This document shows, piece after piece, positions 19,196 to 38,041 of a stretch of 64,000 nucleotides of DNA (positions within the stretch are counted from its first letter, which is position 1; every line of letters starts with the position of its first letter). The notes beneath the pieces were generated by a model, which was given only the letters and a program-made list of their open reading frames with translations, did no database searches and was not told the DNA's origin. A program made the position numbers and the translations under genes. Source of the DNA: Desulfofundulus salinus (lineage in GTDB: Bacteria > Bacillota > Desulfotomaculia > Desulfotomaculales > Desulfovirgulaceae); contig NZ_RBWE01000001.1 in NCBI RefSeq assembly GCF_003627965.1, forward strand, positions 1,783,382-1,847,381. Reading direction: 5' to 3'.

Positions 19196-19343
19196 CAAAA
19201 ATTTTTAAGGACAATTGCAGGATTTGCAAGGTCTATGGACGAATTATATTAACTGGCATTCACAAGGGCTACACGAGCTGAAGGTAATCTAAAACAAAAG
19301 TCGCAACACGCTCTTTATTTTGTTCTTTTCGGGAGGGGATATA

Positions 19344-21353
19344 GTGCCTAGGATTGGCGTCTACATCTGCCATTGTGGCGAGAATATCGCCGGTGCTGTG
19401 AATGTGGAAGAGGTGAGAAAATACGCCGAGAAGCTCCCCGGGGTAGTCCTTGCACGGAACTATCTTTTCATGTGTTCGGATCCGGGCCAGGAATTAATCA
19501 AGCAGGATATTAAGAACGGCCTCATTGACCGGGTGGTGGTGGCAGCCTGTACTCCCCGCACACACGAACCGATCTTCCGCAAGGCGGTGGAGGACGGGGG
19601 GCTCAACAAGTACCTCCTCGAAATGGCGAACATCCGTGACCAGGATAGCTGGCCACATTGGCAAGACAAGGAGAGAGCCACCGCAAAAGCAAAGAAACTG
19701 GTTGCCAGCGCCGTAGCGAAGGCCGCTTTCCTGGAGCCGCTGGAGGACAGATTTGTGGAAGTAACGCGTGCATCGCTGGTCGTTGGCGGTGGCGTCGCCG
19801 GAATGTTTGCCGCGCTCGATCTGGCCAATATGGGCTATAAGGTCTACCTGGTGGAGAAAAGCCCCTCCGTTGGGGGCAACATGGCCAAGCTCGATAAGAC
19901 TTTCCCCACCAATGACTGTTCAGCCTGTATCCTAACTCCCATCATGGTGCAGGTGGGAACCCATCCGAATATTGAACTTCTAACTTACTCCGAAGTGGAA
20001 TCCGTCGAAGGATCCGTCGGCAACTTCAAAGTGAAGGTAAGAAAGAAACAGACGTATATTGACTGGGATAAGTGTACTGGATGCGGCGATTGCGTGAATG
20101 CCTGCCCGGCCAAGGTGCCCAACGAGTTCAATGAGGGCATGGATAACCGCAAGGCTATTTATATTGAGTTTCCGCAGGCAGTACCGAAACGGGCGGTTGT
20201 AGATATTGAGCACTGCCTTAACTGCGCGAAACGTATTATCGGTACCCAGCCGAGGACCCATTCCAAGACTGGCGAGCCCATCCTTGCCCCGTGTGAGAAA
20301 GCATGCAAAACCGGTGCGTGTGACCGTTCAAGGGCGTATAACCCCGAAGGCGAGATCGTCGAGCTCAACGTGGGCACCATCATCGTGGCTGCCGGTTACA
20401 AGGTGATGGACAAAGCGCCGTTCAAAGAGTATTCGCCGCAATCACCCAACGTTATCACGGCCATGCAACTTGAGCGTATCCTGTCGGCAACCGGTCCCAC
20501 GGAAGGCCAATTGAAACGCCCGTCGGACGGTGAAAAGCCCAAAACCATCGCCTTCATCTCTTGTGTTGGCAGCCGGGATAAGAGATACCATACCTATTGC
20601 TCCAAGGTCTGCTGCATGTACATGCTCAAGGAAGCCCGGTTGATCAAGGAGAAGTACCCTCACATTGATATTTACATTTTCTTTATTGACGTGCGAACCG
20701 GCGGTAAAGACTTCGAGGAGTACTACAACTACTGCCGTGATCTTGGCATCAAGATGCTTCGCGGCCGTGTCGGGGCGGTAGACGAGTTGCCAGGCGATAG
20801 GTTAAGGGTGCGCGCCTACGACGTTGACCTGGGTGCGCCCGTAGAATTGGAGGCCGACCTGGTGGTCCTGGCCACGGCTATCGAGCCTGCTCCGGACCTC
20901 GAAGAACTTGGCCGGAAGCTGGGTATCACATGCGGCAGCGAAGGTTTCATGAAGGAGTTGCACACCAAGCTCTATCCGGTAGAAACGTCAGTGAAGGGTA
21001 TTTACATCGCCGGGTGTACACAGGGCCCCAAAGACATTCCCGAATCGGTGTCACAAGCACGGGCTGCTTCTTCAGCGGCCGCAGTACCCCTCACCTTAGG
21101 AAAGGTAATTGTGGAGCCGCTGATTTCGGAAGTGAACCAGAGGAAGTGCACCGGCTGCGGTACTTGCGTGCAACTGTGTCCGTACTCGGCCATCAGCCTG
21201 GTGGAGGATAAAGGAAGGCTGCGGTCCAAAATTGACGAAGCCCTGTGTGCCGGCTGCGGCGTATGTGCAGCGGCTTGCCCGTCGGGAGTCATCACGTTGC
21301 ACGGCTTCACCAACGCCCAGATCCACGCACAAATTAAAGCTTTAGCCTGCTGA
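19344..21353 (+). CDS. hdrA: HdrA-type flavoprotein (Hdr-Flx complex)
   Basis: The 669-residue protein is a single-module HdrA, the FAD subunit proposed to bifurcate electrons. It has the N-terminal IGVYICHCG domain, an FAD-binding VVGGGVAGMFAALDLA, and the adjoining FPTNDCSACI. Insert ferredoxin motifs include CTGCGDCVNACP, and the C-terminal 2[4Fe-4S] domain has CTGCGTCVQLCP and CAGCGVCAAACP. GTG 19344 is chosen because of GGGAGGGG upstream and the usual start PRIGVYICHCG. HdrC, HdrB, MvhD and Flx genes follow, so it should be the flavin core of an HdrABC-FlxABCD complex. Confidence 0.9.
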   Translation: MPRIGVYICHCGENIAGAVNVEEVRKYAEKLPGVVLARNYLFMCSDPGQELIKQDIKNGLIDRVVVAACTPRTHEPIFRKAVEDGGLNKYLLEMANIRDQDSWPHWQDKERATAKAKKLVASAVAKAAFLEPLEDRFVEVTRASLVVGGGVAGMFAALDLANMGYKVYLVEKSPSVGGNMAKLDKTFPTNDCSACILTPIMVQVGTHPNIELLTYSEVESVEGSVGNFKVKVRKKQTYIDWDKCTGCGDCVNACPAKVPNEFNEGMDNRKAIYIEFPQAVPKRAVVDIEHCLNCAKRIIGTQPRTHSKTGEPILAPCEKACKTGACDRSRAYNPEGEIVELNVGTIIVAAGYKVMDKAPFKEYSPQSPNVITAMQLERILSATGPTEGQLKRPSDGEKPKTIAFISCVGSRDKRYHTYCSKVCCMYMLKEARLIKEKYPHIDIYIFFIDVRTGGKDFEEYYNYCRDLGIKMLRGRVGAVDELPGDRLRVRAYDVDLGAPVELEADLVVLATAIEPAPDLEELGRKLGITCGSEGFMKELHTKLYPVETSVKGIYIAGCTQGPKDIPESVSQARAASSAAAVPLTLGKVIVEPLISEVNQRKCTGCGTCVQLCPYSAISLVEDKGRLRSKIDEALCAGCGVCAAACPSGVITLHGFTNAQIHAQIKALAC

Positions 21354-21370
21354 GTTCGGGGGTGGTACGA

Positions 21371-21943
21371 GTGTCTAGCGATCAAGTAGCAACGGGGGTA
21401 ATCAACCTCTCTGAAGGCGATTCCAGTCTAGCTAATGAAATAAAAGAGTTAGGCGGCGAGGAATTGATGGAATGCATCCAGTGCGCCAAATGCGCCGCCG
21501 CCTGCCCTATGGTGCTGGCTGGCTTTCCCTTTTTCAACAAGCGGATTATTCAAGCGATTTTCCTGGGGTTGCGTGACGCACTGCTGGACGATTCATCCAT
21601 TTGGGCCTGTCAGTCCTGCAATCGCTGCACCGAAGTATGTCCGCGGGAGGTTAACCCCTTTGAGATCATTCAAGCCATGCGGCGAGTGGCGATAAGGGAG
21701 TTTGCCCTGCCTACCCTTTCCATTGAAGGTCTTAAGTCCCTTTACGATACCGGCCATGCCGTTTATCTGGCGGGAGCCGGAAACACGCGGGCAAAAGTTG
21801 GTCTGCCGGAAAAGCCGCCTTCCACGGTCGCGAACCCGGAAGCTTTGAAAGAGCTGCAGGCGGTCATACGAAAAACAGCCCTGGCCGACCTGGGAATTAT
21901 CCCCATGGACGAGTCCGGCGTAAAGGAAACTTGTGAGGTGTAG
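21371..21943 (+). CDS. hdrC: HdrC subunit
   Basis: The 190-residue iron-sulfur protein has CIQCAKCAAACP and CQSCNRCTEVCP, the two 4Fe-4S motifs of HdrC, inside a helical protein. Its inferred job is wiring HdrA to HdrB. GTG 21371 is preferred to GTG 21362 because of spacing to GGGGGTGG. It begins 17 bases after hdrA and is followed by hdrB after three bases. Confidence 0.87.
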   Translation: MSSDQVATGVINLSEGDSSLANEIKELGGEELMECIQCAKCAAACPMVLAGFPFFNKRIIQAIFLGLRDALLDDSSIWACQSCNRCTEVCPREVNPFEIIQAMRRVAIREFALPTLSIEGLKSLYDTGHAVYLAGAGNTRAKVGLPEKPPSTVANPEALKELQAVIRKTALADLGIIPMDESGVKETCEV

Positions 21944-21946
21944 CCA

Positions 21947-22840
21947 ATGAAGGTAGGTTTTTTTGTCGGCTGCAACACGGCGTTTAATAGACCGGATTTA
22001 GAGCAGGCGGTACGGTATGCGTTCCCGGCACTCGGGATTGAACTGGACAACCTTGAAGGACAGTCATGTTGTCCCAGTTGGGGGACGATGCCCTCCGTAG
22101 ACGTGGTGGGCTGGTGTGCCGTAGGAGCTAGAAACCACACCATAGCTGAGGAAAAAGGCCTGGATATAGTCACCGTGTGCGGCAGCTGTTACGGTAGCCT
22201 GGCTGAATCAAAGTACAAGATGGATACCCACCCGGAGATAAAGGCCCAGGTCAACGAGATTCTTAAGGATATTGGCAGGGAATATAAGGGAACCAGCAAT
22301 GTCAGGCTCGCTTTCTATTATCTATACCATGAGCTTGGGCCTGACAAGATTAAAGAGGCCGTTAAACATAAACTCGACGGCCTTACAGTGGCCCTTCAGC
22401 CCGGCTGCCACACCCTCTGGCCAAGCAAAGTTTACTATGATAAGGAAGAAGATCCCTTCCACCCCAAGGTGCTTAAGGAAATGTGTGAGGCCTTGGGCGC
22501 TACAGTTGGTCATTATACCCGCTTAATCGACTGTTGTGGTATGGGTGCTATGCGGAGCACCGACATGGAAAAATCCTTAAAGCTTGTTGAGAAAAAGCTT
22601 ATCTCCATGAAAAACGAGGTTAATCCCGACCTGATCGTGACCGGTTGCAGTTCCTGCTTGATCCAGTTCGACACAGCCCAGGAACTCCTGCGTAGCGGCA
22701 AGAAGATTAATTTCGAGATTCCTGTCCTCCACATCATGCAGGTCCTGGCGTTATGCCTGGGAGCCGATCCGGAGCGGGTTACCGGTCTGGCGAAAACGGA
22801 TGTAAGACGCGTTGTAAACAGGATTTTGGAAGGATTATAA
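21947..22840 (+). CDS. hdrB: HdrB subunit with two CCG domains
   Basis: The 297-residue protein has the HdrB pattern. The first CCG domain has GCN near residue 6, SCCPSWG near residue 45 and CGSCYGS. The second has QPGCHTLWPSK, DCCGMGAMR and TGCSSCLIQFD. These cysteines ligate the two noncubane clusters that reduce a disulfide in the methanogen enzyme. The natural disulfide partner in bacteria is unsettled; DsrC-like proteins or small thiols have been proposed for Hdr-Flx systems. It sits between hdrC and the selenoprotein mvhD-like gene. Confidence 0.87.
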   Translation: MKVGFFVGCNTAFNRPDLEQAVRYAFPALGIELDNLEGQSCCPSWGTMPSVDVVGWCAVGARNHTIAEEKGLDIVTVCGSCYGSLAESKYKMDTHPEIKAQVNEILKDIGREYKGTSNVRLAFYYLYHELGPDKIKEAVKHKLDGLTVALQPGCHTLWPSKVYYDKEEDPFHPKVLKEMCEALGATVGHYTRLIDCCGMGAMRSTDMEKSLKLVEKKLISMKNEVNPDLIVTGCSSCLIQFDTAQELLRSGKKINFEIPVLHIMQVLALCLGADPERVTGLAKTDVRRVVNRILEGL

Positions 22841-22914
22841 AAGACCATCTTGGCCTTTAACTGTTAACTTTTCTCAGCTCTCTGGCTTTCTTTGGGTAGT
22901 GAAAGGAGTGAAAA

Positions 22915-23373
22915 ATGGTAATGCGGACAGAGTTTGAACCAAAAATTATTGCCTTTTTATGTAACTGGTGCAGTTACGCAGGTGCAGACCTTGCCGGGTC
23001 TCTCAGGTTCCAGTACCCCCCGAATGTGACGATCATCAGGGTGCCCTGCTCTGGAAGGGTTTCTCCGTTATTTATACTGAAGGCCCTTTTTGCCGGCGCT
23101 GACGGCGTGCTGGTAGGCGGGTGACATCCCGGAGACTGCCACTATGGTAGTGGCAATTATAATGCTGAACGGCGCACCAAGATCACCCAGCGGCTTTTAG
23201 ATTCACTGGGAATTGAGCGGGAGCGGCTCCGGTTGGCCTGGATTTCCGCTTCGGAAGGGGCCAAGTTTGCCGAGACGGTAAGAGATTTCACTACTCAGCT
23301 ACAGGAGTTGGGTCCCAACCCGTTGCGTGTCACGGATGGCCAGGAGAAAGGGAATGAAGGAACCGTGGTTTAA
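22915..23373 (+). CDS. flxD: MvhD/FlxD-like iron-sulfur subunit, selenoprotein (TGA = Sec)
   Basis: Read through one in-frame TGA (23122-23124), this gives a 152-residue MvhD-family protein. The first part has [26 protein letters not shown] and PCSGR. The TGA falls in VGG-U-HPGDCHY, exactly where MvhD proteins have cysteine in GGCH.GDCHY. After it the frame continues without stops through NYNAERR to TAA 23371-23373. A perfect hairpin (23137-23155) begins 12 bases after the TGA. MvhD passes electrons from a donor (hydrogenase or Flx) to HdrA. Start ATG 22915 has AAAGGAG. A sequencing error or pseudogene is less likely because both halves are intact and conserved. Confidence 0.85.
23122..23155 (+). 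promoter_or_regulatory. Predicted SECIS element for the first MvhD
   Basis: After TGA 23122-23124, TGCCACTA (23137-23144) and TAGTGGCA (23148-23155) form an 8-bp perfect stem closed by TGG, with GGT at the tip. Bacterial SECIS hairpins lie directly after the UGA inside the coding region and carry an exposed G-U in the apical loop that SelB contacts. Position and tip fit. Confidence 0.7.
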
Positions 23374-23559
23374 CAAGATCCTTTGTAAGGGCTAAGGAAA
23401 GGCACCTACAAACAAGTTGTCAGTCTCGCCCAAAGCTCCTTAATGCAGGAGGGAAGATTAAAGCCATGGAAAGGAAATCTAGAGGCAAACGGAGTACTTA
23501 CCTCGGTCAAGGAACCGAGTCCCAATAAAGGTCGGGTCGAGAAGGCGGGGTGTTATAAA

Positions 23560-24522
23560 ATGAGCGAATTAACCAGGGCAATTCAAGAAACGGCACAAAA
23601 GCTTCTGCAAAACAGGGAAGTTGAACTAGTGGTGGGTTTTGCAGAGGGGAGCCTCCCTTTGCGCAATACCCCCTGCTTTGTTCGCCAACCAGAGGAGGCA
23701 CAAAAGCTGGTCTGGGGTTACGGCTGTGAAAACAACCTGGCTAACTACCTCCGCAAGAGGCCAGAAAAGGTGGCCGTGGTAGCTAAGGGTTGTGATAGCC
23801 GCTCCATAGTAGAGCTTATAAAAGAAAACCAGATCGACCGCGATAAACTGGTGGTTATTGGTGTACCTTGCCGGGGCATGATTGACCGCAAGAAAGTAAC
23901 CCACTTGCTGGCAGGAAAGGAGCTGCTGGAAGCAGAAGTAAGGGACGGCCAGGTCGTATTAAAAGGAAAAGAATTTAACGAAACTGTTCCCCTTGAACAA
24001 TTGCTTTACGATACCTGTTTAACCTGCCAACACCCCAACCCGGTGTTGTTCGACATCATGATGGGCGAACCAGTTCCGGTGAAAGAAACCGAATGTTTTG
24101 CCGACGTAGCAAACTTTGAAACAAAAGCACCGGCGGAAAAGCGGGCATATCTCATGCAGGAACTGTCCCGTTGTATTCGATGCTATGCCTGCCGGCAGGC
24201 CTGCCCCATGTGCTTCTGCGAAGAATGCTTTGTCGATTGCTCTATGCCCCAGTGGCTTAGCAAGTCATCCCTGAATGTTCAGGATAACGTCTTCTTCCAG
24301 GCCGTAAGGGCACTTCACCTGGCCGGGCGCTGCGTGGACTGTGGAGCATGCGACCGTGCCTGCCCCATGGGCATTGATTTGCGCACCTTAACCCGCAAAA
24401 TGGTGAAGGATGTTCAGGAGCTGTTTGGTTATACCGCCGGGGTCAGCTTGGATCAAAAACCTCCGCTAGCTGCACCAATTAATACAACAAGCCCGGCCAC
24501 TTGTAATCAAGACGGGAGGTGA
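23560..24522 (+). CDS. flxC: FlxC-like / FrhB-type iron-sulfur protein
   Basis: The 320-residue protein combines an N-terminal region of the coenzyme F420 hydrogenase/dehydrogenase beta type (VVAKGCDSRSIVELI, VIGVPCRGMID, CLTCQHPNP) with two 4Fe-4S motifs, CIRCYACRQACP and CVDCGACDRACP. A cysteine cluster CFCEECFVDC lies between them. ATG 23560 is chosen since the upstream 39 residues from 23443 have no RBS and look noncoding. It lies between the Sec-MvhD gene and flxB and probably belongs to the FlxABCD NADH-oxidising unit. The letter B or C is assigned by analogy only. Confidence 0.72.
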   Translation: MSELTRAIQETAQKLLQNREVELVVGFAEGSLPLRNTPCFVRQPEEAQKLVWGYGCENNLANYLRKRPEKVAVVAKGCDSRSIVELIKENQIDRDKLVVIGVPCRGMIDRKKVTHLLAGKELLEAEVRDGQVVLKGKEFNETVPLEQLLYDTCLTCQHPNPVLFDIMMGEPVPVKETECFADVANFETKAPAEKRAYLMQELSRCIRCYACRQACPMCFCEECFVDCSMPQWLSKSSLNVQDNVFFQAVRALHLAGRCVDCGACDRACPMGIDLRTLTRKMVKDVQELFGYTAGVSLDQKPPLAAPINTTSPATCNQDGR

Positions 24523-24526
24523 GAGA

Positions 24527-25552
24527 GTGTTGCTTGTAAATAAAGGCCAGTTTACCGATTGGCTCAATCAGTTAATACAGGTTTATCAGGTATATGCCCC
24601 TGTAAAAGAGGATGACTATTTCTGCTTTAAAAAAATTAACTCTGGCGACCAGGCAACCTTGAATTATACCAACTCCAAGGTTCCCCCCAAAGAAGTTCTC
24701 TTTCCACGTTCGGAAAAACTCTTCTGCTATCGCTGTGAAAACGATGGCGTTCAATTAACAGAACAAATTGATGAAAGCAAAAAAATTATCGTTGGCTTAA
24801 GGCCCTGCGACGCCAAAAGCTTTCTCCTTCTGGACGGCGTCTTTAACAGTGACAAATATCATGATCCTTACTACCTGATAAGAAGAAACAATACCGTACT
24901 GGTAGGTCTTGGGTGTAATCAACCGGCAGCCACCTGCTTTTGCACTTCCCTGGGCGGGGGTCCTTTTGCCACCGAAGGCCTGGACCTCTTGCTGGTGGAC
25001 ATCGGTGACCGATACGTGGTGGAGGTGCTGACGGACAGGGGTCGAGAATTGCTTTCCGGAATGGAGCTGCCCGCCGCCAACCAGGAGGCGCAGGAAGCCG
25101 CCCGAATAGTGAAGGAAGGTGCGGCGCTCTCTACCCAAGTTAATCTGGAAGGGCTAAAGTCCAAGTTGGATGTTATTTTCTATGACCCCATCTGGGACCT
25201 GATCCATGAGAAGTGCCTGGGGTGTGCCGCCTGTACTTACACCTGTCCCACGTGCCACTGCTTTGACATCGTAGACGAGGCTGAGGGGAACGAAGGCTGC
25301 CGGATACGCAATTGGGATGCCTGCATGTTCCCGCTCTTTACCCTTCACGGTTCCGGCCACAACCCCCGTCCGACGGGTAAGGAACGGTTCCGGCAACGGG
25401 TCATGCATAAATTCAAGTACTTCGTGGACAATTTTAACGCCATAGCCTGTGTAGGCTGCGGCAGGTGCATTATAAACTGCCCTGTTAATCTGGACATCCG
25501 GGAAGTGTTAGCGGAGATCCAGGGTTCGGAAGTGAGGTCTGATAAGCAATGA
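24527..25552 (+). CDS. flxB: FlxB-like / AsrA-type 4Fe-4S protein
   Basis: The 341-residue protein resembles the iron-sulfur subunit of anaerobic sulfite reductase (AsrA) and FlxB. It has an N-terminal domain with GLRPCDAKSF, then two ferredoxin motifs CLGCAACTYTCPTCHC and CVGCGRCIINCP. Start is GTG 24527 behind GGGAGGTG. Its stop overlaps the next start (ATGA), so it is translationally coupled to the FAD/NAD subunit. Role: carry electrons between the FlxA flavin and FlxD/HdrA. No sulfite reductase catalytic subunit (AsrC) follows, which favours Flx over Asr. Confidence 0.75.
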   Translation: MLLVNKGQFTDWLNQLIQVYQVYAPVKEDDYFCFKKINSGDQATLNYTNSKVPPKEVLFPRSEKLFCYRCENDGVQLTEQIDESKKIIVGLRPCDAKSFLLLDGVFNSDKYHDPYYLIRRNNTVLVGLGCNQPAATCFCTSLGGGPFATEGLDLLLVDIGDRYVVEVLTDRGRELLSGMELPAANQEAQEAARIVKEGAALSTQVNLEGLKSKLDVIFYDPIWDLIHEKCLGCAACTYTCPTCHCFDIVDEAEGNEGCRIRNWDACMFPLFTLHGSGHNPRPTGKERFRQRVMHKFKYFVDNFNAIACVGCGRCIINCPVNLDIREVLAEIQGSEVRSDKQ

Positions 25553-26388
25553 AAAACCCCTATCTTCCACTTCCCATGCGGCTGGTTAAAAACTTTGTGG
25601 AAACCGAAGATAAGCTTATTCATACCTTTACCCTGGAGTTCCTAAATGAAGAAGACGAGAAGTCATTCCAATATTTACCCGGCCAATTTGCCGAGGTATC
25701 CGTATTTGGTGTAGGTGAAGCTCCCTTCGGCATTGCCTCTTCGCCCACAGAACCCGGGCACCTGAAGTTCTCGGTGGCCAAAGTAGGTGTGGTGACCACA
25801 ACCCTACACCAACTCCCTGAAGGCACCATCCTGGGTGTGCGGGGACCGCTGGGAAACAACTATCCCATAGAGGAGTTTAAGGGCAAGAACCTGGTAGTAA
25901 TTGGCGGTGGCTTTGCCTTCACCACATTAAGATCGCTGATTACCTACATTCTCCATCCCGACCACAGGGGAGACTACGGAGAACTGACGGTAATTTATGG
26001 CGCCCGGAATCCTGGCCTCTTGCTCTACAAGGACGAGCTGGCCGAATGGGAAAAGCGTTCGGACATTAATCTGGTCTGCACCATTGACCGCCCGGTAGAA
26101 GGATGGAGCGGCCGGGTGGGTTTTGTACCGGCAGTAACCAAGGAAGTAGCTCCCAGCGCGGAAAATGCGTACGCGGTAATTTGCGGCCCACCGGTGATGA
26201 TTAAGTTCACCATGCCGGTGCTCGAGGAACTGGGCTTTCCCTCCGAGCGGATCATCATGTCCCTGGAAAACCGCATGAAATGCGGCATCGGCATGTGCGG
26301 TCGGTGTAACGTGGGCAATAAATACGTCTGTAAAGATGGTCCGGTCTTTACCCGGGCACAACTTAACCAGTTGCCTAACGAATACTAA
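25549..26388 (+). CDS. flxA: FlxA-like FAD/NAD-binding oxidoreductase
   Basis: The 279-residue ferredoxin-reductase-type protein has an FAD-binding half (LPGQFAEVSVFGVGEAPFGI), an NAD-binding half (VVIGGGFAFTTLRSL, ICGPPVMIKF) and a C-terminal 2Fe-2S site, CGIGMCGRCNVG...C. This is the PyrK/AsrB/FlxA plan. In FlxABCD-HdrABC of sulfate reducers it oxidises NADH, and HdrA splits the electrons between ferredoxin and a disulfide. It ends the Flx gene run and is followed by a large hairpin. Confidence 0.82.
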   Translation: MKNPYLPLPMRLVKNFVETEDKLIHTFTLEFLNEEDEKSFQYLPGQFAEVSVFGVGEAPFGIASSPTEPGHLKFSVAKVGVVTTTLHQLPEGTILGVRGPLGNNYPIEEFKGKNLVVIGGGFAFTTLRSLITYILHPDHRGDYGELTVIYGARNPGLLLYKDELAEWEKRSDINLVCTIDRPVEGWSGRVGFVPAVTKEVAPSAENAYAVICGPPVMIKFTMPVLEELGFPSERIIMSLENRMKCGIGMCGRCNVGNKYVCKDGPVFTRAQLNQLPNEY

Positions 26389-26398
26389 AAAGATAAAA

Positions 26399-26455
26399 AC
26401 AACCCCCGGCTTGCGCCGGCTTAAAGGTAAGACCGGCGCAAGGCCGCAGGGTTGT
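26399..26455 (+). promoter_or_regulatory. Long intercistronic hairpin after flxA
   Basis: ACAACCC (26399-26405) pairs with GGGTTGT (26449-26455). Inside it GGCTTGCGCCGG (26408-26419) pairs with CCGGCGCAAGgCC (26433-26445). There is no T-run. It could be a partial terminator or an RNA-stability element separating the Hdr-Flx and Hdr-Met gene groups. Confidence 0.6.
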
Positions 26456-26502
26456 GTATGTGGGATGGTCAATCAAAAAGCCCTAGAGGGGAGGATTCCC
26501 AA

Positions 26503-27726
26503 ATGAATGCCATCGTGGCCGCTGAACTGGATCCCACTTTTCGGGACGAGTTAGCGGAAAAGATGAAAAGTTTGGACTTTGCCAACTGTTTAGCCTGCGG
26601 TATGTGTACCGCTGGCTGTGCCTTCTCCGACCTGCACCCGGATAACGATCCCCGCAAAATGCTGCGCAAAGTAATCCTGGGCATGCGGGAGGAACTTTTA
26701 AAAGACCCCTTTATCTGGTACTGCACCATGTGTGAACGGTGCACCGTGGAGTGTCCCATGTGCGTAAATATTGCCGCCGTTACCAGGGCCATTCGCGGCA
26801 ATTTCCGCACCGATTCACCCGGTTTCCTCCAAAAGGTAGTTGACGACACCATCAGGTCCGGCAACCAGATGGATGTACAGCCCGATGAATACATGGAAAC
26901 ACTGGAGTGGCTCCAGGAAGAACTGCAGGCTGAACTGGGTGATCCTGATTATCACATTCCTATTGATGTGGAGGGAGCCGACTTCCTCTTTGGCTTCAAC
27001 GCCCGGGAGGTGAAGTATTACCCCAACGAATTGCAAAACATCCTGAAGATTTTCTATGCCGCCGGTGCCAATTATACCTTGAGCTCCCAAAAGTGGGATG
27101 CTACCAACTTGGCCCTTTTCAGTGGTAAGGACGAAGATTTCTGGAAAATCACTGAACCAATGCTTCAGGAAGTGGTACGGCTAAAGGCCAAGGAATTGGT
27201 TGTTACCGAATGCGGCCACGCCTTCCGTTCTGTACGCTGGGGTTACCGCACCTTCTGGAAGGGACCGCAGTTCCCCATCCGCAGCATTCTGGAGGTCCTG
27301 GACGAGTGGATCCAGCAAGGGCGGATTAAGCTGGACCCCACCAAGAACCCCGAACCGGTCACTCTCCATGATCCCTGCAACCTGGTGCGCAAGGAAGGGG
27401 TAGTAGAACCGCAGCGCCGGGTATTAAAGGCTGCAGTAATGGACTTCCGGGAAATGTTTCCCAACGGCAGGTGGAATTATTGCTGCGGTGCCGGAGGCGG
27501 TGCCCTGGCCATGCCTGAATATACCGAACAGCGCTTAATCAAGGGCAAGCGCAAAGTGGACCAGCTTTTGGCCACAGGAGCTAAAATTGTGGCTATTCCC
27601 TGCCACAACTGCATGGACCAGTTCAACGACCTCAACAAACATTACAAGCTGGGCATGAAGATGGAACATATCTGTAGCATTGTTGAAAGAGCCTTGATTA
27701 TGCCCGAAAAAAAGCCCAAAGTTTAG
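26503..27726 (+). CDS. HdrD/DsrK-like fused HdrC-HdrB protein
   Basis: The 407-residue protein joins an HdrC-type half (CLACGMCTAGC, CTMCERCTVECP) to an HdrB-type half, as in HdrD, DsrK and HmeD. The first CCG domain looks degenerate (VTECGHAFR). The second is complete (HDPCNLVRK, NYCCGAGGG, IPCHNC), suggesting a single noncubane cluster. ATG 26503 has GAGGGGAGGA upstream. It precedes the double HdrA, MvhD, MetV and MetF, so it probably supplies the HdrBC function of that complex. Use of a DsrC-like or other disulfide is inference. Confidence 0.8.
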   Translation: MNAIVAAELDPTFRDELAEKMKSLDFANCLACGMCTAGCAFSDLHPDNDPRKMLRKVILGMREELLKDPFIWYCTMCERCTVECPMCVNIAAVTRAIRGNFRTDSPGFLQKVVDDTIRSGNQMDVQPDEYMETLEWLQEELQAELGDPDYHIPIDVEGADFLFGFNAREVKYYPNELQNILKIFYAAGANYTLSSQKWDATNLALFSGKDEDFWKITEPMLQEVVRLKAKELVVTECGHAFRSVRWGYRTFWKGPQFPIRSILEVLDEWIQQGRIKLDPTKNPEPVTLHDPCNLVRKEGVVEPQRRVLKAAVMDFREMFPNGRWNYCCGAGGGALAMPEYTEQRLIKGKRKVDQLLATGAKIVAIPCHNCMDQFNDLNKHYKLGMKMEHICSIVERALIMPEKKPKV

Positions 27727-27834
27727 ACCACGCCGAATACACCTACCTCTGCCCCCGGCAAAGTTAACCCCTGGGCCGGCCTGCAGGGGTGAGTATTACC
27801 ACCTCCATTTTCGAAAGGACGGATGTGATGTTCA

Positions 27835-30800
27835 ATGAGCGTTAACAAAGCAGGGTCGGTACTGGTGGTGGGAGCGGGTATCGCCGGCATCCAGGCCTCC
27901 CTGGATCTTGCCGAATCGGGCTATTTGGTCTACCTGGTGGAAAGTTCTCCGGCCATTGGCGGCACCATGCCCATGCTGGATAAAACCTTTCCCACCAACG
28001 ACTGTTCCATGTGCATCCTTTCCCCCAAGCTGGTGGAATGCGGCCGTCACCTGAATATCAAAACCTACACCTGCGCCGACGTGGTGGACGTGCAGGGCGA
28101 ACCGGGGAATTTTACCGTAATCATCCGTCAACGCCCCCGATACGTCGATGTGGATAAATGTAAGGGATGTGGCGACTGCGCCGAGGCCTGCCCCATTGAT
28201 GTCCCTTCGGAGTTCGACCAGGGGATCAGGGAGCGCAAGGCCATTTATAAACCTTACGCCCAGGCCTTTCCCAATGCCTATATCATTGATAAGGAAAACT
28301 GCATCGAGTGCGGTGCCTGCGAGGAAGCCTGTCAGGCCGGCGCCATAGACCATTCCATGGAAGAGGAAACCATTGAGCTGAATGTGGGGGCCGTGGTCCT
28401 CTGCCCGGGATTTCAGAAATTTGACCCCTCCCAACTGACCTATTATGGTTACGGTAAATATCCCAATGTTTTGACCAGTTTGGAATTTGAACGGATTCTA
28501 AGCGCTTCCGGTCCCTTCCAGGGACATCTGGTCAGACCCTATGACAAAAAAGAACCCCGGCGCATTGCCTGGATTCAGTGCGTGGGGTCCCGTAACTGCC
28601 GGATAGACCACGGTTACTGCTCCTCGGTGTGCTGCATGTATGCCATCAAGGAAGCGGTCATCGCCAGGGAACACAGCAAAGAGCCCCTGGAAACCACTAT
28701 CTTTTACATGGACATGCGCACCTATGGCAAGGGTTTTGAGAAGTACTACAACCGGGCCAAGGACGAACAAGGGGTTAGGTTCATCCGTTCACGGGTTTAT
28801 GAAATTTCGGAAGTGGAAGACGAAAGCAAAAATTTGCGCATTCGCTATGCCGAGGAAAACGGCACCATCTGTGAAGAGGAGTTTGATCTGGTTGTACTGT
28901 CCGTTGGCCTTGAACCCTCCCCGGGCGCCATGGAATTGTGCCGGAAGCTGGGGCTTACACTGAACAAGTACGGATTTGCGGAACCCGCCCCCCTTACCGG
29001 TGTAGGGACAAATAAACCGGGTATTTTCGTAGCCGGCGCCTTCAGCGCACCCAAAGACATCCCGGAAACGGTGATGCAGGCCAGTGCTGCCGCCGGCGCT
29101 TCGGCCAGCCTCCTGGCGGAAGCCCGTGGTACCCTGGTGAAGGAAAAGGAATTTCCGCCGGAAAAGGACGTCAGCGGGCAGACACCGCGTATTGGTGTCT
29201 TTGTCTGCCACTGCGGTGTGAACATTGGCAGTGTGGTCAATGTGCCCGAAGTGGTGGAAATGGCCAAGAATCTGCCCAACGTGGTTTATGCCGGCGAATA
29301 TCTCTATGCGTGCTCCCAGGACAGCCAGGCAGCCATCAAACAGATCATTGAAGAATACGGCCTGAACCGGGTGGTGGTTGCCTCGTGCAGTCCGCGAACC
29401 CACAAGCCCCTTTTCCAGGAAACCGTCCGGGAAGCCGGATTAAACCGGGCACTGTTTGAAATGGCCAACATCCGTGACCAGTGCTCCTGGGTACACATGC
29501 ATGAACCTGATAAGGCCACGGAAAAAGCCAAGGACCTGGTAAAAATGGTGGTAGCCAAGGCTGCCCTCCTGGAGCCGATTCCCCAGGTCGCGGCCGGCGT
29601 GACCAAAGCCGCCCTGGTCATTGGCGGCGGCGTATCGGGTATGACCAGTACCCTTTCATTGGCCGATTTGGGTTACCGGGTACACCTGGTGGAAAAAGAG
29701 CAGCAATTGGGCGGAGTGGCCCGGCGCATCAGGCACGGGTTAAAGGGTGAGGAGGTTCCTGCCTTCTTAAACGATCTTGTGGCCAAAGTAATGTCCCACC
29801 CCAACATCGAGGTTCACGCAGGCACAGAAGTTCAAGCCGTGGCCGGTTATGTGGGCAATTTCGTCACCACCCTGACAAACGGCAAGGAACTGCAACATGG
29901 CGTGGCTATTATCGCCACGGGCGGTGTGGAATATAAACCCACGGAATATCTTTATGACGAAAGTGACCGGGTATTTACCCAGCTGGAGCTGGAAGAAGCC
30001 CTGGCAGCGGGAGACCCGCGCATTGAGAACGCCAAGACATTTGTGCTCATCCAGTGCGTCGGCTCCCGGGAACCCGAGCGCCCCTACTGCAGCCGGGTAT
30101 GCTGCGGCAAGTCCGTCAAGCTGGCCTTAAAGCTTAAGGAAAAGAATCCCGCAGCCAACGTATTCGTGCTCTACCGGGACATCCGTACCTATGGTTTCCT
30201 GGAGGACTATTACCAGGAAGCTCGCCGCAAGGGCGTGTTCTTCATCCGTTACAATCTTGAAAACAAGCCGCTGGTTGAAAAGGGAGACAGCTCGCTTAAG
30301 GTTACCGTAACCGACCACGTCCTGGGTGTACCGGTAGTCATTGAGGCCGATGTAATCGGACTGGCGGCGGCCATCGTGGCTCCTGAAAGCAACCGCCAGC
30401 TGAGCCAGCTCTTTAAAGTGCCTTTGAACGAAGACGGCTTCTTCCTGGAAGCCCACATGAAGTTACGGCCGGTGGACTTCACTTCTGAGGGTATTTTCAT
30501 GGCCGGTTTGGCCCATGGACCGAAAAACCTGGAGGAAAACATTGCCCAGGCCAAAGCAGCGGCGGGTAGGGCATCTACCATTCTCGGGAAAGACCACCTG
30601 GAATCCCACGGTGTGGTAGCGGTGGTGCAACAAGATAAATGCGCCGCCTGTCTGACGTGTGTAAGGCTCTGTCCCTACAATGCGCCTAAAATTAGAAATT
30701 ACGCTGCCGAGATTGAACCATTACTCTGCCAGGGCTGCGGCACCTGCGCCGGAGAATGCCCCAACAAGGCCATCACCCTCCAGGGTTATAAAGACCATAT

Positions 30801-30840
30801 GCAAATGTCCATGAGCAAAGCTTTATTCAGGGAGGTGTAA
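27835..30840 (+). CDS. hdrA: Double-module HdrA flavoprotein (Hdr-Met complex)
   Basis: The 1001-residue protein is two HdrA-like modules in tandem. Module 1 (about 1-440) has VVGAGIAGIQASLDLA, FPTNDCSMCI and ferredoxin motifs CKGCGDCAEACP and CIECGACEEACQ. Module 2 (about 450-1001) starts again with IGVFVCHCGVNIG, has a second FAD motif VIGGGVSGMTSTLSLA, and ends with CAACLTCVRLCP and CQGCGTCAGECP. Such long HdrA forms occur next to MetFV in acetogens. Two FAD sites could allow flavin-based bifurcation during methylene-THF reduction, which is not proven. ATG 27835; the mvhD-like gene starts four bases after its stop. Confidence 0.88.
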   Translation: MSVNKAGSVLVVGAGIAGIQASLDLAESGYLVYLVESSPAIGGTMPMLDKTFPTNDCSMCILSPKLVECGRHLNIKTYTCADVVDVQGEPGNFTVIIRQRPRYVDVDKCKGCGDCAEACPIDVPSEFDQGIRERKAIYKPYAQAFPNAYIIDKENCIECGACEEACQAGAIDHSMEEETIELNVGAVVLCPGFQKFDPSQLTYYGYGKYPNVLTSLEFERILSASGPFQGHLVRPYDKKEPRRIAWIQCVGSRNCRIDHGYCSSVCCMYAIKEAVIAREHSKEPLETTIFYMDMRTYGKGFEKYYNRAKDEQGVRFIRSRVYEISEVEDESKNLRIRYAEENGTICEEEFDLVVLSVGLEPSPGAMELCRKLGLTLNKYGFAEPAPLTGVGTNKPGIFVAGAFSAPKDIPETVMQASAAAGASASLLAEARGTLVKEKEFPPEKDVSGQTPRIGVFVCHCGVNIGSVVNVPEVVEMAKNLPNVVYAGEYLYACSQDSQAAIKQIIEEYGLNRVVVASCSPRTHKPLFQETVREAGLNRALFEMANIRDQCSWVHMHEPDKATEKAKDLVKMVVAKAALLEPIPQVAAGVTKAALVIGGGVSGMTSTLSLADLGYRVHLVEKEQQLGGVARRIRHGLKGEEVPAFLNDLVAKVMSHPNIEVHAGTEVQAVAGYVGNFVTTLTNGKELQHGVAIIATGGVEYKPTEYLYDESDRVFTQLELEEALAAGDPRIENAKTFVLIQCVGSREPERPYCSRVCCGKSVKLALKLKEKNPAANVFVLYRDIRTYGFLEDYYQEARRKGVFFIRYNLENKPLVEKGDSSLKVTVTDHVLGVPVVIEADVIGLAAAIVAPESNRQLSQLFKVPLNEDGFFLEAHMKLRPVDFTSEGIFMAGLAHGPKNLEENIAQAKAAAGRASTILGKDHLESHGVVAVVQQDKCAACLTCVRLCPYNAPKIRNYAAEIEPLLCQGCGTCAGECPNKAITLQGYKDHMQMSMSKALFREV

Positions 30841-30843
30841 CCA

Positions 30844-31293
30844 GTGGGGGAATTTGAGCCTAAAATCGTAGCATTTTGTTGCCACTACTGAGCCTACTCC
30901 GCAGCGGACCTGGCAGGTTCGATGCGACTGCAATATTCTCCAAACATTCGCATTGTCGAAATGCCCTGCTCGGGCACCATCGATCACCGGGTGCTCCTGC
31001 AGGCCTTTGAAGATGGCGCCGACGGCGTGTTTGTTGCCGGCTGCATGGAAGGCGACTGTCACTTCCAAAAAGGAAACTATCGCGCCAAAAAGCGGGTAAA
31101 TGCGGTTAAAAAACTGCTCGATGAAATTGGAGTGGGTGGCGAACGCCTGGAAATGTACAACCTTTCGGCGGCCATGGGACCCCGTTTTGCGGAAATAGCC
31201 AACGAGATGAGCGAACGTATCCGCCGTCTGGGCCCCAGTCCCCTTAAAAAACAAAGTGCAGGGACCACGGAGAAAGAAGGTGACGTGGCATGA
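30844..31293 (+). CDS. mvhD: MvhD-like iron-sulfur subunit, selenoprotein (TGA = Sec)
   Basis: From GTG 30844 (RBS GGAGGTG overlapping the hdrA end) the frame runs through one TGA at 30889-30891 to TGA 31291-31293, giving 149 residues. The start reads EPKIVAFCCHY-U-AYSAADLAG. The family has cysteine there (NWCSYxGAD). The later site has AGCMEGDCH with a normal cysteine. The part after the TGA is intact. The only ATG after the TGA (30922) would remove the N-terminal cysteines and has no RBS. Role: electron transfer to the double HdrA of the MetFV complex. The stop overlaps the metV start (ATGA). Confidence 0.85.
30889..30926 (+). promoter_or_regulatory. Predicted SECIS element for the second MvhD
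   Basis: After TGA 30889-30891, ACCT (30908-30911) and AGGT (30915-30918) close a GGC tip. Outer CGCA (30901-30903 with the preceding C) and TGCG (30923-30926) extend the stem across an internal loop. The tip G residues lie about 24 bases from the UGA, close to the spacing in the first MvhD copy. The stem is weaker than the first. Confidence 0.5.
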
Positions 31294-31961
31294 TCATAGC
31301 ACAACAAAAGCCAATTAAAGATATTGCCGCAATGATTGCCGACTGCAAAAAGGTCCTCCTGGTTGGCTGTGCCGGTTGTGTTACCGTCTGTCTGTCGGGG
31401 GGCGAGAAAGAAACCGAAGTTTTGGCTTCATCCCTGCGCATCATGCGCCGGTTACAGGGCAACCCACTGGAAACAGTTACCTATACCGCCACCAGGCAGT
31501 GCGACCCGGAATACATTGAGGCCCTGGAAAATCTGGTTAAAGACGTCGATGCCGTAGTTTCCCTTGCCTGTGGAGTGGGCGTACAGTACATCGCCGAGCG
31601 GTTTCATGACAAGTGGGTGGTACCTGCCCAGAACACCATGTTTGTGGGTGGTTCCACGGCCCACGGCGTGTGGGAAGAAAGGTGCGGTCTTTGCGGCGAC
31701 TGCATCCTCCACCGCACCGGCGGTATCTGCCCCATTATCCGCTGCTCCAAGAGCATCTTAAACGGTCCCTGTGGCGGCTCCCAGTACGGCAAGTGCGAGA
31801 TCAGCAAGGATGTGGACTGTGCCTGGCAACTGATCTACGACCGCATGAAAGTTCTGGGCAAGCTGGACAAATTGCTTGAAATTCAACCACCCAAGGATTG
31901 GTCCAAGTCCCGTGACGGAGGGCCGCGTAAAGCCATCAGGGAGGATGTGATGATCGGGTGA
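31290..31961 (+). CDS. metV: MetV, methylene-THF reductase partner
   Basis: The 223-residue cysteine-rich protein has VGCAGCVTVCLSGGEKE near the start, LACGVGVQYIAE in the middle and a C-terminal set CGLCGDCILHRTGGICP...C with NGPCGGSQYGKCE. This is the MetV family that partners MetF in acetogens and binds zinc and/or 4Fe-4S clusters. It overlaps both neighbours (ATGA with mvhD, GTGA with metF), so the three are translated in step. It links the Hdr electron chain to the reductase. Confidence 0.88.
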   Translation: MIIAQQKPIKDIAAMIADCKKVLLVGCAGCVTVCLSGGEKETEVLASSLRIMRRLQGNPLETVTYTATRQCDPEYIEALENLVKDVDAVVSLACGVGVQYIAERFHDKWVVPAQNTMFVGGSTAHGVWEERCGLCGDCILHRTGGICPIIRCSKSILNGPCGGSQYGKCEISKDVDCAWQLIYDRMKVLGKLDKLLEIQPPKDWSKSRDGGPRKAIREDVMIG

Positions 31962-32881
31962 AAACAGAAAGCAAACTGCAAAAGCTCCTTGACAGCGGCC
32001 ACTTTGCGGTGACTGCGGAAATCGGGCCGCCCAAGCATGCGTCCGCCCATGGTATCCGCCACCATGCCCACATGTTGAAGGACTACGTGGATGCAACCAA
32101 TATTACCGATTGCCAGACGGCCATCGTACGGCTCTCCAGCATTGCTTCCGCCGTGCATATCCTTGATTGCGGCCTGGAACCAATTGTGCAAATGACCTGC
32201 CGGGACAGAAACCGCATTGCCATCCAAAGCGATTTGCTAGGTGCCTACAGCCTGGGGGTCCGGAACCTGCTCTGCTTGTCGGGCGACCATCAGAAGTTTG
32301 GCAACGAACCCTCAGCTAAAAACGTCTACGATATTGACTCCATACAACTAATCTATTTGATGCGCCGCATGCGGGATGAAAAGCTTTTCTTCTCCGGCGA
32401 ACCCATCAAAGAGCATGAACCCCGCTTCTTCATTGGAGCGGTGGCCAACCCCTTTGCGGATCCCTTTGAGTTCCGGGTGGCCCGGCTGGAGAAAAAAGTG
32501 GAGGCCGGGGCGGAGTTTATCCAGACCCAATGTATTTTTGATATGGAGCGTTTTGAGCGCTTCATGGAAATGGTCCGGGAGAGGGGCATTCACGAACGGG
32601 TACACATCCTGGCCGGGGTCACCCCACTGAAAAGCTGGCGGGCGGCAAAATACCTGCAAACCAGCGTCTCGGGCATGATTGTACCCGATGATGTCGTGGA
32701 AAGGCTGAAAAAAGCAGAAGATCCTAAGCGGGAAGGAATTGAGATCTGCATCGAGCAAATCAAGCATATTCGCAACATTCCCGGCGTACACGGCGTACAC
32801 ATCATGGCCATTGCCTGGGAAGAAGTGGTGCCGGAAATCGTGGAACGGTCCGGTCTTTTCCCGCGGCCCAAAGTGGAATAA
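31958..32881 (+). CDS. metF: 5,10-methylenetetrahydrofolate reductase
   Basis: The 307-residue TIM-barrel enzyme reduces methylene-THF to methyl-THF, the substrate of AcsE. Family features are VTAEIGPPKH at the start, NITDCQTAIVRLSS, LLCLSGDHQ (folate/FMN region), GAVANPF and EAGAEFIQTQCIFD. GTG 31958 overlaps the metV stop. Being encoded with MetV, MvhD and Hdr proteins rather than alone suggests a multi-subunit reductase as in Moorella. The end of the operon is marked by a terminator. Confidence 0.93.
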   Translation: MKTESKLQKLLDSGHFAVTAEIGPPKHASAHGIRHHAHMLKDYVDATNITDCQTAIVRLSSIASAVHILDCGLEPIVQMTCRDRNRIAIQSDLLGAYSLGVRNLLCLSGDHQKFGNEPSAKNVYDIDSIQLIYLMRRMRDEKLFFSGEPIKEHEPRFFIGAVANPFADPFEFRVARLEKKVEAGAEFIQTQCIFDMERFERFMEMVRERGIHERVHILAGVTPLKSWRAAKYLQTSVSGMIVPDDVVERLKKAEDPKREGIEICIEQIKHIRNIPGVHGVHIMAIAWEEVVPEIVERSGLFPRPKVE

Positions 32882-37672: not shown

Positions 37673-37689
37673 AAACTAAATATATGCGG

Positions 37690-37945
37690 GGCAGGTCCTC
37701 AAAGGGGATAATAGGGAAGACCGGGGAGCAGGTGGATCCTGTTTAAGCCGGCGCGGTCCCGCCACTGTAACCGGGGAGGAACCCGCAAAGTGCCACTGGC
37801 CCAGCACTCACTGATGAGCTGCTACATCCGATGGTATGCTTGTTCAGCAGTGAAAATATAACAGCATGGTTTAACCGATGTCACTGGTGAGTGCTGGACC
37901 GGGAAGGCGCGGGCATCCAAAGATCCGGGAGCCAGGAGACCTGCC
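37690..37945 (+). promoter_or_regulatory. Cobalamin riboswitch with a long inserted arm
   Basis: The aptamer is bounded by a perfect P1: GGCAGGT (37690-37696) and ACCTGCC (37939-37945). Core features are AAAGGGGATAATAGGGAA, the CGCCACTGTAACC segment (around 37754-37769) and the B12 box AGCCAGGAGACCTGCC (37930-37945). Between them an extra arm begins with CCAGCACTCAC (37801-37811), pairing with GTGAGTGCTGG (37887-37897). It encloses about 75 bases, making the element longer than usual. It lies upstream of the cobalamin synthesis operon and a terminator, so adenosyl- or aquocobalamin should switch transcription off. Confidence 0.93.
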
Positions 37946-38041
37946 TGCCCCTTTCACTGGAACATGCCCTTTCCTAAAGGGTAAAGCCAGTGGTAGGCCT
38001 TTCTATCTTCGCGCGAAAGATAGCAGGCGTAAAGACTCTCC

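Follow-up and report, generated by a model that had tools for sequence, protein, structure and literature searches.

The 64,000-nucleotide stretch of the Desulfofundulus salinus genome analysed here (the window) carries two paralogous mvhD genes, copy 1 and copy 2, with 7.5 kb between them. Each has a single in-frame UGA codon, at a different one of the cysteine positions conserved in the family, raising the question of why selenocysteine (Sec) should occupy one thiol in one paralogue and another thiol in the other. Both products match the MvhD/FlpD profile PF02662 (186 bits for copy 1 and 175.9 bits for copy 2, curated cut-off 22.3) and both genes have HdrA-like genes upstream, the adjacency used here to recognise MvhD; the VhuD profile NCBIfam NF045873 scores them below its curated cut-off of 215 (144.8 and 171.9 bits, respectively), and they are not classed as VhuD. 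Each copy has four cysteines and one predicted Sec at the five conserved positions (C1, A, C3, B and C5), with a Cys codon at A and UGA at B in copy 1 and UGA at A and a Cys codon at B in copy 2. This reciprocal placement, first proposed from the letters alone (the sequence-only reading), is borne out by the codons, the hairpins that follow them and the Sec genes of the genome. The explanation favoured here, moderately probable as a whole, is that both copies are MvhD selenoproteins in which the [2Fe-2S] cluster would have B among its ligands, with A as a fifth thiol, Sec having been gained repeatedly in the family.

Probable decoding of the two UGA codons as Sec

The genome encodes Sec machinery, with SelA and SelB side by side, a tRNA-Sec (74.9 bits) and SelD. 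The selD gene (L383; G000 C1:840910-841833) has one in-frame TGA of its own, and SelD is probably a selenoprotein itself. Each window UGA is followed by a hairpin resembling a selenocysteine insertion sequence (SECIS), with a loop G 22 nt (copy 1) or 21 nt (copy 2) beyond the codon, and an Rfam scan of the window returned no SECIS match. Relatives from the family survey described below were scored for a perfect stem of a stated minimum length with a loop G, 3' of the codon. After site B, a stem of at least 7 bp was present for 103 of 116 Sec codons, 4 of 119 Cys codons in all-Cys proteins and one of 61 Cys codons in proteins with Sec at A, and it followed the Cys-A codon in 13 of the 116 Sec-B proteins. 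After site A, a stem of at least 6 bp was present for 46 of 61 Sec codons, for 23 of 119 Cys codons in all-Cys proteins and for 26 of 116 in Sec-B proteins. Within one protein, the hairpin tracks the site with UGA and not the one with Cys, with a weaker contrast at A than at B.

Homologues have a Cys codon where copies 1 and 2 have UGA. Past the UGA of copy 2, silent changes are more numerous than replacing ones in each of the nine comparisons with nearer Sec relatives and each of the three with Cys relatives, standing at 49 to 9 over 124 codons against the record L021; two more distant records give silent-to-replacing counts of 36 to 39 and 44 to 43. Over codons 71-135 of copy 1, silent changes are in excess in five of eight comparisons. 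The start codons used are ATG 22915 for copy 1 and GTG 30844 for copy 2, the latter product having 96% identity to its D. thermosubterraneus counterpart; the standard-code open reading frame (ORF) of copy 2 begins at ATG 30922 and is a truncation, because GGAGGT lies seven bases upstream of GTG 30844. Standard-code ORFs do end or begin at the UGA codons, as would be expected if one or both were true stops and the genes broken or split, a very improbable explanation given that 177 domains have their UGA at one or other of these two columns, and given the hairpins, the Sec machinery, the Shine-Dalgarno sequence ahead of GTG 30844 and the mostly silent changes downstream of the UGA in copy 2. Both codons are most likely decoded as Sec, and the presence of selenium in the proteins is predicted on that basis.

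Residues at sites A and B across the family

The survey of homologues was assembled from a set of 80 loci, loci from genome searches and further fetched stretches, and 390 profile matches were reduced to 327 distinct domains once identical domains and any with over 30 gaps had been removed; its proportions are not prevalences, because UGA-bearing rows were favoured in fetching. The sequence-only reading had proposed looking for Sec at either column, and both forms occur in this collection: the 177 in-frame UGAs comprise 116 at B and 61 at A, with none at any other of the 118 profile columns and none of the 327 domains carrying UGA at both sites. With 177 of 177 at one of two columns, the placement is not due to chance. 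A pattern search for UGA at both sites found no case in 113 genomes of the source order, and no MvhD row with two TGA codons appeared among the matches listed in the genome searches.

The five positions differ in how far they tolerate replacement. Cysteine is present at C1 in 320 domains, at C3 in 325 and at C5 in all 327, and site B is Cys in 209, Sec in 116 and a gap in two. Site A is Cys in 237 and Sec in 61, with aspartate in 11, serine in seven, glycine in three, isoleucine in two, threonine and alanine in one each and a gap in four. Among the 25 domains in which A is neither Cys, Sec nor a gap, 22 (aspartate 11, serine 7, glycine 3, threonine 1) retain the other four cysteines; the remaining three are L007 and L349, without C1 and B, and L008, without C3. 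L007 and L349 are MvhD-like domains that retain C3 and C5 and perhaps hold no cluster, judging from the residues lost.

The 11 domains with aspartate at A sit in open frames of 708-806 codons; L015, the one frame of this type that was checked, resembles HdrA and carries its MvhD domain at the C-terminus. A long frame does not always go with the loss of A, because two long frames, L327 (854 codons) and L328 (825 codons), retain Cys at A. The Sec-B domain L240 has serine at C3 and is the only one of the 177 Sec-bearing domains without the C3 cysteine. A relative of copy 2 (L054:3001-3417) has serine at A, with the next stretch one residue shorter, either an altered Sec codon or a sequencing fault. 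A further set of Sec-A proteins has the motif HWU in place of HYU (L239, L290, L316 and L318-L326) and looks like a separate subfamily from its sequences; in L239 the reading frame continues well beyond the MvhD domain and the neighbours differ.

Fold and probable cluster ligands

A structural model of copy 1 (40 sequences; predicted local distance difference test score 93) superimposes on MvhD of the Hdr-Mvh complex of Methanothermococcus thermolithotrophicus (PDB 5odc_D) with Z 24.4 and a root-mean-square deviation of 1.5 A over 138 residues. The known chain shares with the copies the fold, as modelled for copy 1, and all five cysteine positions, but unlike them has Cys at all five in the aligned chain; going by the alignment with the copy 1 model, which has no gaps, these would be Cys13, 16, 42, 67 and 72 of 5odc_D. 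The first elements of the model are strand 11-16, helix 20-29, strand 38-43, helix 51-59 and strand 64-69, and the five thiols of copy 1 (residues 16, 19, 45, 70 and 75 for C1, A, C3, B and C5; spacing C1-x2-A-x25-C3, then B-x4-C5) lie where strand 1, 2 or 3 ends or just past that point. These strands follow one another directly, and the thiols are all at one edge of the modelled fold, which supports, in qualitative terms, A and B being close.

A [2Fe-2S] cluster takes four ligands, and since C1, C3, B and C5 are the four that stay, they are the likely ligand set. B is probably a ligand and A a fifth thiol, because A is replaced in 22 domains that retain the four other cysteines and B is never substituted. 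The iron content of the MvhD domain of Methanosarcina acetivorans HdrA2, an HdrA-MvhD fusion, fits one Fe2S2 cluster according to the available text of PMC5296606, and the available parts of PMC12350162, PMC6019823, PMC12054007 and PMC5296606 name the [2Fe-2S] cluster and not its ligands. The suggestion of the sequence-only reading that A and B form one functional pair holds to the extent that both belong to the same five-cysteine set at one edge and either can be Sec; it does not hold for equivalent halves, with A replaced in 25 of 327 domains and B being Cys or Sec in 325.

Recurrence and independent origins

Eight PF02662 matches were counted in the source genome, half of them with one TGA and half without; copy 2 has the TGA at A, and copy 1, L001 and L003 have it at B. 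L001 (C1:1883690-1884058) lies within a second Flx-like cluster with FrhB-like, Fer4 and NAD-binding subunits, and L003 (C1:2710711-2711079) adjoins an 805-residue HdrA-like protein. Recurrence was counted over 115 genome handles, with part of each genome's mvhD genes covered and with 43 loci of the 80-locus set and the loci from the query described below standing outside the count; three handles are second names (G123/G016, G160/G010 and G159/G112 share contig and coordinates), and the handles therefore represent at most 112 genomes. Paralogues with Sec at A and with Sec at B occur together under 23 handles, Sec at A only under 7, Sec at B only under 56 and neither, among the genes covered, under 29, so the reciprocal pattern is not peculiar to the source organism. 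All six genomes of the source genus (G000 and G061-G065) have both kinds.

A FastTree phylogeny was built from 303 of 307 rows, four gappy rows and columns A and B being excluded, and parsimony was run with the root on the 11 aspartate-type homologues and with ties settled in favour of the parental state or of Cys. The reconstruction gives five gains of Sec at A and 17 at B, nine losses to Cys at B and two at A, and a single replacement of Sec-A by a residue other than Cys, with no direct exchange of Sec between A and B on this tree. These counts are rough, because branch supports around the A clades are 58-96. The pattern suggests that Sec was gained independently at two different MvhD thiols near a single cluster.

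The many gains and losses would also fit neutral turnover, in which swaps between Sec and Cys at both sites matter little for function and the site occupied reflects history and the accommodation of a SECIS hairpin. Five Moorella records (L033, L035, L037, L038 and L048) have Cys at A as well as at B, which points the same way, as does the lack of a fixed relation between site and operon partner considered below. Against it stand the presence of both paralogue kinds in all six source-genus genomes and the absence of any domain with both among the 177, where about 24 would be expected if the sites were independent (61 x 116 / 296), an argument weakened by the relatedness of the rows. Neutral turnover is accordingly kept as a possible but less than probable explanation.

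Operon partner and Sec site

The sequence-only reading had further held that A and B are one equivalent pair and that the choice between them tunes redox properties to an Flx or a Met partner. In the window the Flx-like context does go with Sec at B and the MetV-MetF context with Sec at A, and L001, with Sec at B, is likewise in an Flx-like cluster. Beyond the source genome this relation fails: MetV and MetF lie downstream of L074 and L087, with Sec at A, and of L085 and L092, with Sec at B. L097 and L240 (Sec at B) adjoin sequence interpreted as MetV-like, and L239 (Sec at A) is in a third context, adjoining sequence interpreted as HdrA-, NuoE- and NuoF-like. The partner does not fix the Sec site, because the Sec of MetVF-linked MvhDs is found at A or at B depending on the genome. 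Together with the replaceability of A and not of B, this makes tuning of an equivalent pair by partner improbable.

Relation to known MvhD proteins

Sec in MvhD/VhuD has already been established, as the available portions of PMC2933860, PMC9312934, PMC13188914 and PMC2702500 indicate. PMC13188914, so far as its accessible text goes, gives the motif CxxU and two Sec for MvhD/VhuD, with several Sec in some archaeal members, and the CxxU motif fits site A. Desulfobacterium autotrophicum, a sulfate reducer, has four Sec-containing MvhD paralogues (mvhD1, 2, 3 and 5) near hdr genes; they are likened to the window copies without regard to the Sec sites, which are absent from the available PMC2702500 text. 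The MetVF-HdrABC-MvhD arrangement of Moorella and Sporomusa, as described in the accessible part of PMC9430772, is of the operon type of copy 2; unlike copy 2, the Moorella MvhD has Cys at both sites in the five records noted above. Within the partial texts covered, the literature search found no description of a single Sec at A in one paralogue and at B in another, and nothing on the two sites in the available parts of PMC11881835, PMC13119186, PMC11227280, PMC5736913 and PMC11385720. PMC3971608 was considered as a source for a two-Sec MvhD and set aside, as it concerns formate dehydrogenases.

Another MvhD-like chain, annotated as F420-non-reducing hydrogenase subunit delta, is found with an HdrA chain in the same entry (PDB 9sfi_K). 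The entry may be the Bam benzoyl-CoA reductase complex. A 9sfi_K-like query matched 265 of 297 genomes of one phylum, and no close relative of the chain was reached, because the best identity was 59% among the matches listed.

In the favoured explanation, both genes would encode MvhD selenoproteins, a small [2Fe-2S] subunit passing electrons to HdrA, with five thiols presented at one edge of the fold. C1, C3, B and C5 would most likely hold the cluster and A would be a fifth thiol beside C1. From an all-Cys form, Sec would have been gained repeatedly, either at B, where it would ligate the cluster as a selenolate, or at A, where it would be a selenol next to the cluster, each UGA being followed by its own hairpin and Sec never being present at both sites in the bacterial domains sampled. 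The probable benefit would be an electron entry into HdrA that is faster or more oxidation-tolerant. A further proposal, that A takes part in a two-electron step which selenium at either A or B would accelerate, with the corollary that Sec-B is a natural selenolate ligand of a [2Fe-2S] cluster, is rated as unlikely.

Several observations weigh against the favoured explanation. The two hairpins of the window surpass shuffled sequences by a small margin only (z -1.2 and -1.6 over 49 nt and -0.8 and -1.5 over 62 nt for copies 1 and 2, respectively), and, by the criterion used here, no 6-bp stem follows 15 of the 61 Sec codons at A or 8 of the 116 at B, yet one does follow 23 of 119 Cys-A codons. 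Of the copy 1 comparisons over codons 71-135, one is about even (14 silent to 13 replacing) and two have more replacing changes (9 to 13 and 16 to 20). A form with two Sec exists elsewhere, going by the listing in the available text of PMC13188914. Chain 9sfi_K has X at both A and B at once, which may be Sec, the file being silent on the matter. Ligation by B is deduced from invariance, and the aspartate or serine at A could itself ligate the cluster in those relatives.

Gene neighbourhood

The features of the two loci are collected in Table 1. Several names of neighbouring genes are best matches scoring below curated cut-offs, and Flx, for the subunits downstream of copy 1, is the label of the sequence-only reading. 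The window also contains a cobalamin riboswitch at 37676-37962 (109.3 bits).

Table 1. Positions in the window of the two mvhD genes, their Sec-related elements and adjoining genes
Feature	Position	Strand	Remark or basis
HdrA-, HdrC- and HdrB-like genes upstream of copy 1	19320..22840	+	best family matches, all below curated cut-offs
Shine-Dalgarno-like AAAGGAG ahead of copy 1	22902..22908	+	sequence
mvhD copy 1, predicted selenoprotein	22915..23373	+	Sec site B (residue 70), Cys site A (residue 19)
Copy 1 site A codon TGC (Cys), codon 19, context NWCSY	22969..22971	+	
Copy 1 site B codon TGA (Sec), codon 70, context GGU-HPGDC	23122..23124	+	
Copy 1 SECIS-like hairpin, 8 bp stem, UGG loop	23137..23155	+	RNA folding; relatives
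4Fe-4S protein, sulfhydrogenase-beta/AsrA-like and NAD-binding gamma-like subunits downstream of copy 1	23443..26388	+	
HmcF/TmcB/DsrK-like CCG protein and 1001-residue HdrA-like protein upstream of copy 2	26452..30840	+	
Shine-Dalgarno GGAGGT ahead of copy 2	30831..30836	+	sequence
mvhD copy 2, predicted selenoprotein	30844..31293	+	Sec site A (residue 16), Cys site B (residue 67)
Copy 2 site A codon TGA (Sec), codon 16, context CHYU-AY	30889..30891	+	
Copy 2 SECIS-like hairpin, 7 bp inner stem, GGC loop	30905..30921	+	RNA folding; relatives
Copy 2 site B codon (Cys), codon 67, context AGCMEGDC	31042..31044	+	translation
MetV (DUF5981) and MetF (MTHFR) downstream of copy 2	31290..32881	+	

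Implications

As a practical warning, annotation under the standard code leaves both mvhD genes shortened or split. Should B prove to be a cluster ligand, Sec-B MvhDs, of which there are many, would provide natural examples of first-shell selenium on a [2Fe-2S] cluster where electrons enter a bifurcating enzyme, and the related Sec-A, Sec-B and all-Cys MvhDs offer a natural series for testing the role of selenium. The point of greatest interest is a chemical one, namely the possible ligation of the cluster by Sec-B and the share that A may have in a two-electron step.

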